Below, in pieces: positions 11,391-18,111 of a stretch of 64,000 nucleotides of DNA (its first letter is position 1; every line of letters starts with the position of its first letter). The DNA lies in the NCBI GenBank assembly GCA_016934335.1, contig JAFGTC010000051.1:1-64000 (forward strand), in the 5' to 3' direction. This stretch comes from Candidatus Omnitrophota bacterium. GTDB lineage: Bacteria > Hinthialibacterota > Hinthialibacteria > Hinthialibacterales > Hinthialibacteraceae. Both the position numbers and the translations under genes were made by a program. A model generated the notes under the pieces. The model was not told the DNA's origin and made no database searches. It worked only from the letters and a program-made list of their open reading frames with translations.

Positions 11391-14300
11391 TCAATACAAC
11401 GACCATTGGAGAACCGCCGTGATATCGGGGCCGATCAGGAATTGGCCCGGCGCCAGGACGCCGGCGCTGATGCGCACTTCGTCGACGCGGCCCGGAACAA
11501 CGTCTTCGGTTCCCGCTTGGGATGAGCGGCGCGCCCCGACAAGGATGGGCAAGTCGCTGCCGGTTCTGAAACCGCTGTAATCGGAGACGCCGTCTTCGTA
11601 CACAATGCCGGTTGATACTGGATGGCCGTCCAGATACAAACGGACTTTGTCGGCCGCCGAAGAAGCGCCTAAATCCACCACCGCCGCATAATGATGAAAT
11701 TCACCATCGTAGGGAGCGATGCTTCCTATGGAGGCGGCGTGGAATCGTCCGGCGTAGCCGGTAGTTGAATCACCGTCGTTGAAGAAGAAATCGATCGAGC
11801 CCGGTTTGGAAAGTCCTACGCCGAATCGCCACACCCCGTCCGTCGAAGCGTTGGCGTCATCGTATCGGTCAATAAGAATGGCGGCGCCCGACGCATCGGC
11901 CGAAAACAAGGCGTAGCATTCCATCGTGACGCTCGTTTCCACATCGAGATAGGCTTCATTGCCGCCGAATTGAAATCCGTTTCCGATTGCGCCGTCCAGT
12001 TGCAGGGACATCGTGTTGGCCTGCTGCGTCAACGGTACGGTTTCAAAAGCGGGCGGGGCGGAAAAGGCGGAGGATCCCAACAGGCGTCCGTTCGAGAAAA
12101 GCCCGATTGAGTCTTGCGCGTCGCCTTCAAAGCGGTAATAGGCGATCACGCTGCCGTCGACCAGCGGCCCCATCGGCATAGCTTGAACGGCGACGCCTGA
12201 CGAAGTTCGGCGATCGGACGACACTGTTTTGATCGTGAAAATGTATGGTACGCCGTTTTGCAAATCGCGAATTCGAACGCGATTGTCGCCAATCGGCGTC
12301 GATTCGACCAGACCTTCCGGTTGATAAATATCCACTCGAATCAAGTCGGCGGCCGTCGGCAGGCTCCACTCCAGAAGAACCGATCCGTTCATCGGCGTTA
12401 CAACGATGTTTTCCACTTCCGGAAGAGCCAGTTTCGAACCGGTGTTGAAGGAAGTCGGCGTCGACCAGTCGCTCCAGAGCCCTTCCGCATTCTGGCATCG
12501 CACACGCCAATAATAGGTCGAGTCGGACGCGATGACGTAGGCGGGCGTCGTCGTCGAAAGAGACTCGTTTTCAACATAGGCGCTCCAATACGGAACGGCA
12601 AAATCGTCGCTGTCCGCTTGAATTTCCCATTCGGAGGCGGCGACCGTCTGCCCGGCCGGCGGCTCTGCTTGAAGATTCACGGAGCGCGCCGCGGCCAGCG
12701 CGCCGTCGGCGGGCGACAGATTGGTCGGTTGGGAAGGCGCATCCGCCGGGCGTACGTTCTCATCGTTGAGAATAAAGGCGCTCCGCGCGGTTACATATTT
12801 TTTAATTTCATCCAGCATGGAGTCGATTTCGCCGGGAGAGTTCCAGCGCTGCGCATTTTCTTCGATGGCGTCCTGCAGATAACTCCAATACGAATCGAGG
12901 ATCGGATCGAGGTGTTTGTTTGTGAAGATATGATCCGCCAGGCTGCGAAGCCGTTCGAAATATTGCGCGCGAAATTCCGGAACGCTCAGGAATTTGCGCT
13001 GCAGCTGATTGATGCCGAACAGACCTTCTTCCGCGCCGTATAACAAGCTGAAGTCGGATACGAGCGGGAACTCATCGTTGATATGAATTTCGCCCCAAGT
13101 GTGAATCATGTTCGAAGGCATGATAAACCAACGCCCATCCGCCTGGCGAACCGGATAATAATTTTTTTCGGCGCTGTCGACATGCGAAAGAAGCGCAATG
13201 GCGCAGAGGTAGTCCAGATACGTTTCAATATCCACATTGGCTTCGAAAAACGTCTTTAAATCAGCGGCGCTGTTCAATTCTTCGATAAACGAAGCCAGGT
13301 CGGCGATATCGTCTTCCTGGTCAATGGTGTTTTCGTATTTCTGGGCGTAGGCCTCCAAATTGGGCTCTACCGTCATGGAACTGATGCGCGATTTTACGCC
13401 CGCTTTGAAAATCTGCGTATCGGCGGGCATGCTGCGTTCGTCGAGGAAATCTTCGTTGTATTCCTCGATGCCCAGAAACAGTCCGTAATAGCCATCATTG
13501 AGCATGACTCGGTACGCCTGCGTCTTGGCGGCCGGCAGCCCCATTTCGTGTATAAACTGGAAGGCCATGTGCTCCAGGAAGCCGGCTTCGCCGCGCAGCA
13601 AGGGCGAGGTTTGATAATTGGCGTTCAGATTCATGACCCGCCGGCCCATCCAGCGGTTGTCTTTGGGAAAGCGGATTCTCCAGCTTTTCTTGGGCTTGTT
13701 ATTCAAATCGCCGCCCCGGTAGCGGATGCCGCCCGCTGAGAGAAGGTCGAAGACTTCACCGTCAATCACCACAAGCGACGGCTGTTCGTCATTGGAGTCT
13801 ACATTCCGGTTCAGCCAATCCAAAACCGTCCGTTCGGCGAACAGGTAGACTGTGGGATATTGGGGCGGATCGAGCCGATCTTCCACAAAAAACGCTTGCG
13901 TTTCCGTCTTTTCGCCGGGCAACGGCATGATCGCTTCTTGGCCGGCCGCGTTAACGGCGGAGATTTTATATCGCCATACTTCGTGAGGGCGCAGGGTTTC
14001 TGCATAATTCAATCGGAATGAATAAATCCCGTCGCCGGCGACGGCGTCTCCGCCGGTTCCATCGTCGAACATGGCCGCCGATTTCCAATCATCCAACACC
14101 AATCCCATCCCATAGGGAGAACTGCACCGTTGATAGTGAAGTTGCACGTCCGAAATGCCGGCTGCGTCTTCCACCTTCGCCGTGATGACGACGGAATCGG
14201 CCGCGTCCTCTCCCGCATCCAAAATCCGAGTTATCGATAAGGTTGGATTCAGCGAAAAATCGGAACTGCTCAAACTATAATTGTGCCCTTCCATCGCCAA

Positions 14301-16628
14301 TACGTTTTCACCCGGCTGAAGGTATTGAATAAACTGGGAGGCGTCAAACGATTCGGCGGAGCCTGCTTCGTGATTCCCATCCGCCGTTCGATCCCAAGCC
14401 GGGGGATTGCCGCTTACGTTGGCTCTGGCGATTTCGACGCCGTTGAGATAAGCGACAAAACTGTCGTCGTAATCGACGCTGAGAGTTAATGTTTCGTATC
14501 CGTCGGCATCGTCAAGATTGAAGGTTTTGCGAATATAGACGCTGACAAAACTGTTCCGCATGTTGATTTCAGTATTATCGTCGCCGTCGCCGTACCCGAA
14601 GCCGGCTTGACCCTGCTCCCAGGATGAAGCGTCAAAATCCAGCGCATTCCAATTGGAGGGGGGCGCTTCTGATCCTTCAAAATATCGCCAGATTTGATTG
14701 GCGCTTACCAGGTCTTTTTGTTCGGTGCGCACTTCGCTGACGGACGCGCTTGGATAAGAAGGCGTATGCGTGATCTCCATAATGCGCGGCGGCTCAACAT
14801 CGAGAACCTCGACATTGGGCGCCCCCGGGCTGGCAGGCTGCCCGCTGCGCCAGTTGTACGGCTGCCGGTTGTCACCATAGGGAGCGATCAATTCAAGCGA
14901 ATTGCCGTCGCCGTCAGGACGAACCGGCCAAGGGAATTTGTCGTTAAATTCAACGTAGTCGATGACAATCCCAAGATCGTTCGTTAAAGCCACAGCTTCG
15001 CCGGCGTTGTTGAGTTGGAGAATGAAATTGCCGATTTTATTGGGAACATCCGGATAAAGAGCCGTGTTTTTGCAGACAATCAAGAAGCCGCTGGCGGGAA
15101 TGACGGCGCCGTTTGGAAACAGAAATTCGACCCCGTCGCTGAAACGCCACCCGCTTAAATCGACTTGTTTATCGGATCGATTGAAGATCTCAATATATTC
15201 TTTCTCCAGATTATCGCCATATACTTCGTTTTCGGGATGATAAAAGAGTTCGTTGATCACGACGTCAAAGTCGTTATACTCCAGGTCGCTGATGGTTCGC
15301 GCGTTGGCTCGGCCCGGCGTGCCTCCCATGGCGGAAGCCGCCCAATTGTTGGCTTCTCCATTGGGGCGATTGACCTGAACTAACTCCAGGGATGCGCCTT
15401 CGCCGTCGGCGCCTTCCGGCCATTCGCTGCCGTCGTTGTATTCCACGGAGGCGATCAGACGATCATTGGGATCGAACAGGCGTACGGCGTCTTCGCTGTT
15501 GTTCAATGAGAAGGGAAGCCCTTCTAAGGCGGGGGCCTGCCAACCGGGATCTTTTTCATGAGCAATTAATAAATACCCGTTCGGAGCGATGAACGTGTTT
15601 TTCGGCAGACGGAATACATGAAGATCGTTCGAGTCTTTCAACGACCATAGTGATGCGTCGACTGCCTGGGCTGAGGGATTAAATAATTCAATCCATTCCT
15701 TATCGTCTCCGTCCGCTGAGGGATTGTTGTACATGATTTCATTGATCACAATCGCTCCCTCGTTAACTGGATGATCGTCGACTTTATATAAGTACATGCC
15801 GGCCGCCTGACTGCTGGGCGACGTGATGACCACACCTGACGAATTGACCGCTGTAATCATGTACTCAACGGAAGAGCCATCGGGCTGCGCGGGAACATCG
15901 GCGATGTAAACGCCGCCTTGAAGCCTCATGGCGGCGGTTATGCTTACCAGCCCGTTTAAATAATAATTCAATGAGACGCTGTTGATTTGATCGTCTTCCG
16001 CAAAAGCGGCTTCAATGCGCACCGTTTCGCTGGATGTCGGCGATTGAGGGAAATGGCGCACGCTCTGGAAGCGAGGCGGGATGGTTTGCAATCCGGTGTA
16101 ATTGGCGAATCCCGGCGTGGGGCGCTGGCTGGCTTTCCAATAAAGAACATTGTTGTTGTCGACGTTCGGGTGAACCAGCTCCAGCGAATACCCGTCGCCG
16201 TCGGCTTCCACGGGCCAGGGATCTGCGTCGTTATATTCTACGCGATCCGCTTCGATTCCGTTTGCATCGTAAAGCCGAATTTCCTCGCCGTCATTGGATA
16301 AATTGGATGGGGCGAAATTCCCGACGGTTTGAATCGATGAAGCCAGGTTATAAAAAGAACGAAGGAAAATTTCATTGCGGCATAACAGCAAATAACCATG
16401 GCCGTCGATCACGGTTCCCTGAGGAAACACAAAGTTGATTCCTTCCGTAAATTCCCAGCCGGATAGATCGACGGATTGATTGGAGGAATTGTATAACTCG
16501 AGATACTCGGAATCATATTCGTTGGATTGGGGATGATACATAATCTCATTGATGATTACATCGCTTGAGGCGGGCGGAATCCCGATTATTCCTCCAAGCA
16601 ATAGACACAAAATCAAATTGCGCAGCAT
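11391..16628 (-). CDS. Giant secreted LTD / CotH-like / FnIII / LamG protein
   Basis: This 1745-aa protein is exported (signal peptide residues 1-21, ending IPPASS). It contains three lamin-tail-type domains (about residues 22-150, 290-420 and 455-590), each with VINEIMYHP- or VINELFYHP-like starts and a VDLSGWxF-type motif. A jelly-roll-like segment follows (640-800; YLNGVEIARANVSG), then a CotH-kinase-like domain (about 920-1290; GGIRYRGGDLNNKPKKSW, LNDGYYGLFLGIEEYNEDFL), Fn3-like modules (1300-1480) and a C-terminal LamG-like lectin sandwich (1490-1735). The usual CotH sequence NYYLYRD...PWDLD is here NYYPVRQADGRWFIMPSNMI, so the expected metal-binding aspartates are absent. The start is supported by GGAGG 6 nt upstream. 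It is probably cell-surface or extracellular; whether it phosphorylates proteins is doubtful. Confidence 0.9.
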   Translation of the reverse strand: MLRNLILCLLLGGIIGIPPASSDVIINEIMYHPQSNEYDSEYLELYNSSNQSVDLSGWEFTEGINFVFPQGTVIDGHGYLLLCRNEIFLRSFYNLASSIQTVGNFAPSNLSNDGEEIRLYDANGIEADRVEYNDADPWPVEADGDGYSLELVHPNVDNNNVLYWKASQRPTPGFANYTGLQTIPPRFQSVRHFPQSPTSSETVRIEAAFAEDDQINSVSLNYYLNGLVSITAAMRLQGGVYIADVPAQPDGSSVEYMITAVNSSGVVITSPSSQAAGMYLYKVDDHPVNEGAIVINEIMYNNPSADGDDKEWIELFNPSAQAVDASLWSLKDSNDLHVFRLPKNTFIAPNGYLLIAHEKDPGWQAPALEGLPFSLNNSEDAVRLFDPNDRLIASVEYNDGSEWPEGADGEGASLELVQVNRPNGEANNWAASAMGGTPGRANARTISDLEYNDFDVVINELFYHPENEVYGDNLEKEYIEIFNRSDKQVDLSGWRFSDGVEFLFPNGAVIPASGFLIVCKNTALYPDVPNKIGNFILQLNNAGEAVALTNDLGIVIDYVEFNDKFPWPVRPDGDGNSLELIAPYGDNRQPYNWRSGQPASPGAPNVEVLDVEPPRIMEITHTPSYPSASVSEVRTEQKDLVSANQIWRYFEGSEAPPSNWNALDFDASSWEQGQAGFGYGDGDDNTEINMRNSFVSVYIRKTFNLDDADGYETLTLSVDYDDSFVAYLNGVEIARANVSGNPPAWDRTADGNHEAGSAESFDASQFIQYLQPGENVLAMEGHNYSLSSSDFSLNPTLSITRILDAGEDAADSVVITAKVEDAAGISDVQLHYQRCSSPYGMGLVLDDWKSAAMFDDGTGGDAVAGDGIYSFRLNYAETLRPHEVWRYKISAVNAAGQEAIMPLPGEKTETQAFFVEDRLDPPQYPTVYLFAERTVLDWLNRNVDSNDEQPSLVVIDGEVFDLLSAGGIRYRGGDLNNKPKKSWRIRFPKDNRWMGRRVMNLNANYQTSPLLRGEAGFLEHMAFQFIHEMGLPAAKTQAYRVMLNDGYYGLFLGIEEYNEDFLDERSMPADTQIFKAGVKSRISSMTVEPNLEAYAQKYENTIDQEDDIADLASFIEELNSAADLKTFFEANVDIETYLDYLCAIALLSHVDSAEKNYYPVRQADGRWFIMPSNMIHTWGEIHINDEFPLVSDFSLLYGAEEGLFGINQLQRKFLSVPEFRAQYFERLRSLADHIFTNKHLDPILDSYWSYLQDAIEENAQRWNSPGEIDSMLDEIKKYVTARSAFILNDENVRPADAPSQPTNLSPADGALAAARSVNLQAEPPAGQTVAASEWEIQADSDDFAVPYWSAYVENESLSTTTPAYVIASDSTYYWRVRCQNAEGLWSDWSTPTSFNTGSKLALPEVENIVVTPMNGSVLLEWSLPTAADLIRVDIYQPEGLVESTPIGDNRVRIRDLQNGVPYIFTIKTVSSDRRTSSGVAVQAMPMGPLVDGSVIAYYRFEGDAQDSIGLFSNGRLLGSSAFSAPPAFETVPLTQQANTMSLQLDGAIGNGFQFGGNEAYLDVETSVTMECYALFSADASGAAILIDRYDDANASTDGVWRFGVGLSKPGSIDFFFNDGDSTTGYAGRFHAASIGSIAPYDGEFHHYAAVVDLGASSAADKVRLYLDGHPVSTGIVYEDGVSDYSGFRTGSDLPILVGARRSSQAGTEDVVPGRVDEVRISAGVLAPGQFLIGPDITAVLQWSLY

Positions 16629-16767: not shown

Positions 16768-18111
16768 TTATTCGCTCTTCCTCGCTTGCTCCAAATAGTC
16801 AAGCATTCGATCGGCGTGACGGACGAAATCGGATGTGGAAATTTCGTGCATTCCCTCGGCGGCGCCGAATTGTTCTTGATATTGCTTCAAATGAGAGCCG
16901 ACGAGCGGACTGAGCCAGCGCCCCTGTTCATCCAGCGCCCGGGCGGAGTTGTACGCGGCGCGCTTTAACTGTTCCAATGAAGGAATTGATTTTTGGCCGG
17001 CGATTTCGCGTCGTTCTTCCACCGGAGAGTCCAATAACTTCTCATAGATTTGCCGGAGTTTTGGATCCCAATAATTACCTTGCCAACTATAGCCGGGGCG
17101 GGCGAGCGAAACATCGTAGACGATTTCGCCTTCTTCCGTGCTGTAAATCGGTCGATTGTCTCCATACTGATACAAGCGCGCCAGTTTTCCGTTCGGCAGG
17201 ATGGATGCTTGCAGCCACTCAAAGGCCGGCGGACCTGCTTTCAGATATTTCTTGTCGCCGGTCTCTAGATAAACCTCGAGAAGAAGCCGCAGAGCGCCGA
17301 TCGATTCGGCGGACGTCAAACCGACCGGTTCGAAGCGCCGCGCGGGCGCCGGCTTCCCCTCAGGCGTGAATTGCTGCGCCCAACCGGCCTGCGGCGGTGC
17401 GCCCTGGAGCTGCAAAAGGCAATCCGCTCCTCGAACCGCGGCGTCGTAATATCGCTGATCTCCCAATTCATGATAGAGAAGGAATAAAGTGCGAATCACG
17501 TCCATCATGGCGTCGTCATTCAGCGTGATGTATCGAGAATATCCCTTGCCCAGCGGGTAGGCCTGAGGCCATCCGCCGTTTTCATACTGCGCGTCGATCA
17601 TAAATTGCGCACACCGCTCGACCGATGTGAGAAATTTTTGCTCGTGGGATTCTTTCCATAAGGCCAATAAATAACGGGTCGCCCCTTGGGTGACGTCGTC
17701 GTCAAACGTGCCCGATTTTTTTTCCATTTTCCCTGGAATGAATTCGTGAGGAAATCCTCCATGCTCCAACTGCCCGCGCATGAGAGCCTCTCCCGCCCGA
17801 ACGGCGATCGAAAGATAATCCGGCTCTTTGAGAATTTGATAAGCGCGCAGGTAAATTCCCGCTGCGCCTGGAGTTGCGGGCGGTTGGACGGTTATGATGT
17901 CCGGCGGCCGCACGGCGTATTCTCCCCATGTCATTTGATAATCGGATGTCCAGCGCATAGCCCAACCGCCGTTGCGCTGTAAGGTTTGCATAAACGAGAG
18001 AGCCCTTCGCAGAGATTTTTCCACGTATTCGTTTTCATCTATGCCTTGGGCAAATCCCGTGAGTGCGACTCCCCAGAAAAACAACTGAAAATACGTACAA
18101 ATTCTCCTCAT
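16768..18111 (-). CDS. Secreted pectate lyase, PL10 (Pec_lyase) family
   Basis: Family PL10 pectate lyases cleave polygalacturonate by beta-elimination. The 447-aa protein has a signal peptide (MRRICTYFQLFFWGVALTGFAQG) and the family landmarks: NGGWAMRW near residue 46, TFDDDVTQGATRYLL, YENGGWPQAYPLGKGYSRYI followed by TLNDDAMMDV, GWAQQFTPEGKPAPARRFEP with the conserved Arg, and GLTSAESIGALRLL. Length fits the family. Its stop lies 139 bp before the start of the giant LTD/CotH gene on the same strand, so both may be expressed together. It suggests use of plant or algal polyuronides. Confidence 0.88.
   Translation of the reverse strand: MRRICTYFQLFFWGVALTGFAQGIDENEYVEKSLRRALSFMQTLQRNGGWAMRWTSDYQMTWGEYAVRPPDIITVQPPATPGAAGIYLRAYQILKEPDYLSIAVRAGEALMRGQLEHGGFPHEFIPGKMEKKSGTFDDDVTQGATRYLLALWKESHEQKFLTSVERCAQFMIDAQYENGGWPQAYPLGKGYSRYITLNDDAMMDVIRTLFLLYHELGDQRYYDAAVRGADCLLQLQGAPPQAGWAQQFTPEGKPAPARRFEPVGLTSAESIGALRLLLEVYLETGDKKYLKAGPPAFEWLQASILPNGKLARLYQYGDNRPIYSTEEGEIVYDVSLARPGYSWQGNYWDPKLRQIYEKLLDSPVEERREIAGQKSIPSLEQLKRAAYNSARALDEQGRWLSPLVGSHLKQYQEQFGAAEGMHEISTSDFVRHADRMLDYLEQARKSE

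Follow-up and report, generated by a model that had tools for sequence, protein, structure and literature searches.

The Pfam name usually makes CotH domains "kinases", and a giant exoprotein gene in a 64,000-nucleotide stretch of a Candidatus Omnitrophota bacterium (hereafter the window, meaning that whole stretch) raises the question of whether the CotH domain that it carries still deserves the label. The gene runs on the minus strand from an ATG start at 16628 to 11391 and encodes 1745 aa with an N-terminus that is, by eye, signal-peptide-like; its sequence points to a secreted, modular protein of surface type, with the following parts.

11391..16628, minus strand: whole gene, LTDx3 - linker/Ig - CotH - Ig/Fn3-like - LamG - C-terminal tag (open reading frame, Pfam and orthologue alignment)
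16230..16574, minus strand: lamin tail domain (LTD) 1, residues 19-133 (PF00932, best of the LTD stretches)
15399..15761, minus strand: LTD 2, residues ~290-410, limits approximate (Pfam LTD stretch; limits from orthologue alignment)
14889..15266, minus strand: LTD 3, residues ~455-580, limits approximate (Pfam LTD stretch; limits from orthologue alignment)
14001..14075, minus strand: choice-of-anchor X domain match, residues 852-876 (NCBIfam NF041940, 4.1e-08, above cut-off)
12774..13727, minus strand: CotH domain, residues 968-1285 (PF08757, 4.5e-46; AF2 model against 5jda)
12438..12650, minus strand: Rha78A-like Ig domain, residues 1327-1397 (PF25788, 4.8e-07, above cut-off)
12213..12413, minus strand: Fn3-like stretch, residues 1406-1472 (PF00041, 20.1 bits, under the cut-off of 25)
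11448..11954, minus strand: LamG / concanavalin-A-like domain, residues 1559-1727 (PF13385, 3.5e-11)
11394..11420, minus strand: C-terminal tag, last nine residues, ending QWSLY (consensus [TV]xVxxWxLY; orthologue and genome comparison)

A sequence-only reading of the locus had joined three lamin-tail modules, Fn3 modules and a LamG lectin to a CotH-kinase-like domain; Pfam confirmed the three LTD stretches (6.1e-62 for the whole protein, 207.2 bits against a cut-off of 34.3), CotH and LamG, while the Fn3 match stayed below its threshold. LamG gave no match in the whole-protein Pfam scan and appeared when the C-terminal 265 aa were scanned alone (43.9 bits against a cut-off of 27.6), as it did in 4 of 4 orthologue pieces. 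The AF2 model of this piece was unusable (pLDDT 35.9), and a PDB profile search with it returned two weak matches, both to Ig-type chains. When 61 genomes were searched, each of the other five family genomes proved to hold a single clear relative of the CotH domain (61, 57, 57, 50 and 50% identity). Four of these five relatives lie in open frames that align over the entire architecture; in G004 the frame reaches the contig end and the N-terminus is therefore missing. Scanning ten flanking genes across the orthologue loci revealed no conserved gene neighbourhood, and a TrmB-type methyltransferase adjoins only the orthologue genes of the window's genome (G000) and G002. The gene adjoining the exoprotein gene in the window (16768-18111, minus strand) encodes a protein of the pectic-acid-lyase family (PF09492, 7.8e-35) that also matches C5-epimerase, though less strongly.

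The identity of the domain itself is clear. The match to PF08757 scores 158.3 bits against a curated cut-off of 23.8 and covers positions 1-321 of the 322 in the profile. The AF2 model built for the domain (7 sequences, mean pLDDT 68.9, pTM 0.77) superposes on B. cereus CotH (5jda/5jd9) with Z-scores of 26.7/26.6 over ~304 residues at an rmsd of 2.8, whereas the next fold family, HipA, reaches Z 11.9, and the domain is therefore CotH. The model is weak at the catalytic loop (pLDDT <50 at domain residues 192-196) and does not settle side-chain geometry there.

Which residues an active CotH kinase needs is indicated by two published sources: the CotH mutants D228Q and D251A are given as catalytically inactive in PMC7821199, and PMC12189002 states that CotH retains the equivalents of PKA D166, N171 and D184, with Tyr142 and Trp245 binding ATP. 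The residue numbers in the latter source were fitted to the 5jd9 chain with a shift of one, which makes Trp245 the Trp of PWDYD and puts a Tyr at 142. The residue two after D251 is herein called the second acidic position ("D253", an extension of the CotH numbering). Tyr142 and Trp245 stack the adenine. Inspection of the DNA located PSNMIHTWGE at 13118-13089 on the minus strand, where the sequence-only reading had seen Asp replaced by Asn and Ile, and in alignment to 5jd9 PSNMIHTWG pairs without gaps with PWDYDATWG, a pairing obtained twice. The relevant residues of the window's domain, with their state in the six orthologues (window included), are given below.

13407..13409, minus strand: F1074 at the Tyr142 position of B. 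cereus CotH (aromatic in 6/6 orthologues)
13176..13178, minus strand: D1151, equivalent to CotH D228 and PKA D166 (conserved in 6/6 orthologues)
13167..13169, minus strand: E1154, at D228+3 (Glu in 6/6 orthologues against 2/101 other CotH domains)
13161..13163, minus strand: N1156, the metal-binding Asn, PKA N171 (conserved in 6/6 orthologues)
13113..13115, minus strand: S1172 replacing Trp, Trp245 in B. cereus CotH (alignment to 5jd9)
13110..13112, minus strand: N1173 replacing the DFG-like Asp, B. subtilis CotH D251 and PKA D184 (alignment, DNA)
13104..13106, minus strand: I1175 replacing the second acidic residue (Asp/Asn/Glu in 100/101 other domains)

Two residues expected of an active CotH kinase, the D228 and N171 equivalents, are thus present in the window as in all of its orthologues, while the metal-binding Asp at D251 is absent and the ATP-binding aromatic pair is broken, Phe1074 retaining the aromatic at Tyr142 and Ser1172 removing Trp245. 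Judged by its residues, the site is short of one of two essential Asps, of the Trp and of the acidic residue that follows, and remains acidic in part. The earlier observation is confirmed; its description, "without its acidic metal site", was right on D251 and the second acidic residue and too strong in its wording, since D1151 and N1156 remain. The structure prediction and CotH alignment that it had proposed as a check returned a CotH fold and an ungapped motif pairing. The sole candidate for another acidic residue near the metal site is E1154, whose placement is not fixed given the low pLDDT of the model there.

Two wider samples show how unusual these replacements are. The first was drawn from the class, whose 14 genomes gave 101 matches (98 retrieved, with G013:C177, G013:C651:9-614 and G013:C586 absent), and, together with nine outgroup domains, yielded 101 scored non-orthologue domains, with 1 of 108 rows lacking the motif. 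The second came from genomes outside the class (73 rows, 70 after duplicate removal, fragments included) and overlaps the first by about seven rows. Asp occupies D251 in 99 of the 101 non-orthologue domains of the first sample, both exceptions belonging to the lineage L119/L122, and in 68 of 69 in the second. The second acidic position reads D 63, E 25, N 12 and M 1 in the first sample and is D/N/E in 68 of 69 in the second, where 29 of the 69 carry Asn; with Asn so common, acidity at this position may be dispensable for function, which counts against the pseudokinase reading. The D228 column of the first sample contains D 90, E 9, S 1 and G 1. Trp245 is more variable (W 88, H 6, F 3, Y 2, E 2 and one gap in 102 rows of the first sample), being W in 46 of 73 rows of the second sample with mostly other aromatics in the remainder. 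Glu at D228+3, invariant in the orthologues, recurs in 3 of 70 rows of the second sample. Other orthologue groups of the same genomes retain D251 throughout (L005 group 6/6, L008 group 7/7, L011 group 5/5), although their tips are somewhat shorter on the tree. CotH domains number 11-17 in each of the six family genomes and 0-10 in the other eight class genomes. In the L008-type group (L008, L129, L131, L132, L136, L138 and L140, from G000-G005) Glu stands for D228 and Asp for the N171 equivalent in a motif E...GDDY with PWDxD intact in 7/7, which may represent a swapped catalytic loop.

Within the orthologue group the motif is lost by degrees. At Trp245, D251 and the second acidic position the six domains read W-D-R (G002), W-D-S (G003), N-D-Q (G004), I-D-V (G001), S-N-I (window) and E-E-S (G005). 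The second acidic residue is accordingly missing from all six, the Trp from four and D251 from two (Asn in the window, Glu in G005), with the D251 column staying within D/E/N and two of the four Asp-bearing members, G002 and G003, also retaining the Trp. The CotH match is free of stop codons in 6/6, and no gap occurs from the RW aromatic to WG in any of them. A sequencing or assembly error behind PSNMI was rejected, as three motif positions depart from the consensus for the family and the orthologues show intermediate and parallel losses; an alignment slip was rejected on account of the ungapped stretch in the six and the reproduced pairing with 5jd9. Mean identity among the six is 0.546 for CotH, compared with 0.57-0.61 for the LTDs, 0.54 for LamG and 0.38-0.40 for two linker/Ig stretches, and among 16 columns that form the family core, the clade deviates, D251 aside, at the Trp (4/6), the second acidic position (6/6) and one Gly (2/6). 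Since CotH is as conserved as its neighbours and the departures are few, the decay is aimed at one motif and is not domain-wide. This bears on the idea of a passive relic, in which drift abolished the kinase and CotH persists just for lying between needed modules: the graded motif loss across the family would be compatible with it, but a level of conservation matching LTD and LamG, uninterrupted frames in every orthologue and the retention of core residues outside the motif make it very unlikely.

On a tree of 104 domains (four of the 108 rows, L034, L130, L106 and L010, were omitted) the six orthologues form a single clade (SH-aLRT 100), in which G001+G004 branch first, followed by G002, the window and the pair (G003, G005). 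The window and G005 sit on different branches, and the Asn and Glu losses of D251 are therefore independent. Parsimony places four D251 changes on the tree, two of them in the orthologue clade, which makes up 3.3% of the tree length; the p value for enrichment in the clade (0.003-0.006) is too optimistic, because the window was picked for lacking D251 and one clade loss is thus an ascertained event. Another scenario is that the four D251-bearing orthologues are active and that only the window and G005 copies are dead, through recent genus-level losses and with no pseudokinase lineage at all, a scenario that overlaps the best explanation as far as the window's own copy is concerned. D251 in 4/6, accompanied by the Trp in G002 and G003, speaks for it, yet the second acidic residue is gone from all six while D/E/N occupies that position in 100/101 and 68/69 other domains (about seven shared between the samples), and we regard this scenario as rather unlikely.

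We favour, as the likely though by no means certain explanation, that the domain belongs to an orthologous lineage in which PWDxD is eroding and that this copy is a pseudokinase retained for a structural or binding role; the CotH of the window would then probably have ceased to work as a kinase and serve the cell surface as a structural component. The explanation builds on the observed sequence, fold match, loss pattern and conservation of the rest of CotH at the level of its neighbour modules. The ancestor of the lineage lost the second acidic residue; the Trp is gone in four of the six members and D251 went independently in two (Asn in the window, Glu in G005). The window's copy would not use Mg-ATP for phosphate transfer at any useful rate. 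Selection would maintain CotH as a rigid, folded module, structural or ligand-binding, flanked by the LTDs and LamG, and these neighbours may attach the protein to glycans or to other proteins of the surface, while the C-terminal [TV]xVxxWxLY tag may direct sorting or anchoring. The pseudokinase suggested from the sequence at the outset gains from the loss of D251 and Trp and from the separate loss of the Asp in a second orthologue; it is weakened by the partly kept metal site and by D251 remaining Asp in 4/6 orthologues. A catalysis-free domain need not keep the D228 and N171 equivalents, the Tyr142 aromatic and the other core positions that this one keeps, and the sole argument for a role in binding or as a scaffold is domain company. 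Other LTD-CotH proteins were checked for the same loss, and a loss general to such proteins was rejected, as L001 and L030 read PWDLD and L018 reads PHDWD (LTD-type by eye), all with the canonical motif.

The most interesting of the rivals is an enzyme with altered chemistry, in which CotH would act as a metal-poor or Mg-independent kinase, or in nucleotidyl or acyl transfer, with E1154 and D1151/N1156 replacing D251. Precedents exist in CASK, which is active without the DFG Asp, and in SelO, which catalyses a different reaction, and SidJ is reportedly another, going by a title ('Bacterial pseudokinase catalyzes protein polyglutamylation...'). The invariance of D1151 and N1156, the aromatic at the Tyr142 position in all six orthologues and the Glu at E1154 (6/6 against 2/101 others) would suit such an enzyme. 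Had the pocket taken on a new chemistry, however, conservation would be expected in it, whereas position 251 varies as D,D,D,D,E,N and the Trp position as W,W,N,I,S,E; moreover, E1154 is not placeable in the AF2 model, which falls below pLDDT 50 at domain residues 192-196, and we judge an altered enzyme distinctly unlikely.

The preferred pseudokinase reading has a parallel elsewhere in the family. The two exceptional domains of the first sample, L122 (G003:C55, PENLM) and L119 (G005:C179, PERLD), both have Glu for Trp245 and have Asn and Arg, respectively, for D251. They occur in two of the six family genomes and, like the window protein, combine the loss of Trp245 and D251 with an N-terminus that is LTD-type by eye; unlike it, they are ~980 aa long and occupy a separate branch of the tree. 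Being separate and likewise without D251, they imply that pseudokinase-like CotH arose at least twice in the family. Among the matches listed in a literature search there was no dedicated paper on CotH pseudokinases, and a search for 'CotH kinase' together with 'lamin tail domain' found nothing; in PMC9758233, four Legionella kinase families are placed near FAM20/CotH. The annotation 'CotH kinase' may cover non-catalytic exoproteins, and one orthologue group that spans near-canonical to motif-free domains makes catalytic loss testable residue by residue.

The C-terminal tag extends beyond the orthologues, whose C-termini read VEDWALY, VDDWSLY, ISDWTLY, VDEWALY and VTEWSLY. The WxLY-stop DNA pattern occurs 82 times in the window's genome, compared with 38 for the reverse pattern; 14 of the 82 distinct matches read Trp for stop and 68 have a true stop. 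Of these 68, 52 close an open frame of at least 150 aa, whereas none of the 17 places of the YxLW-stop control does. T or V stands at -9 in 46 of the 52 tagged frames and V at -7 in 37, a crude rule finds a hydrophobic N-terminal core in 37 of the 43 uncut ones, and two, the thioredoxin-like L062 and L203, appear by eye to be chance matches. In G005, 13 of 30 retrieved places end such frames, one of them (L305) reading WTFY. In raw counts, WxLY-stop outnumbers its reverse control in G000, G005 and, to a smaller degree, G004, but barely does so in G001-G003 or in most genomes beyond. The tag, which ends ~50 otherwise different and mostly secreted G000 proteins and many in G005, may serve as a signal for sorting or anchoring that has not been described, and could mark an unknown surface-sorting route. 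Searches for known machinery gave no match to exosortase PF09721 in the window's genome (E<=0.001; 94% complete), the control being matched in 1 of 14 genomes, and none to SprA TIGR04189 of Type IX secretion, which was likewise missing from the control genomes; a literature search for the 'WxLY' tag gave only unrelated work among the matches listed. It is conceivable, and we put it forward tentatively, that in this family of uncultured bacteria with large genomes extracellular CotH kinases have become pseudokinases on two occasions and are displayed, with ~50 other exoproteins, via the undescribed nine-residue [TV]xVxxWxLY tag, which unknown machinery for export or anchoring would read.

Set beside known systems, the window's domain is closest to the Bacillus CotH spore-coat kinase (5jd9/5jda; PF08757), with which it shares the fold, the D228 and N171 equivalents and the aromatic at Tyr142. 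Where Bacillus CotH has Trp245, D251 and the next acidic residue, it has Ser, Asn and Ile, and while the solved chain of B. cereus CotH comprises 359 residues, the window's CotH is embedded in a 1745-aa LTD/LamG exoprotein. HipA-type kinases provide the next best fold match (Z ~10-12) at ~10% identity, and are not known to occur in the company of LTD or LamG. Eukaryotic pseudokinases with a changed DFG Asp resemble the window's domain in keeping the HRD-type Asp while the DFG Asp is replaced, but they are unrelated in sequence and mostly intracellular, whereas the window protein is, as its sequence indicates, secreted and bacterial.
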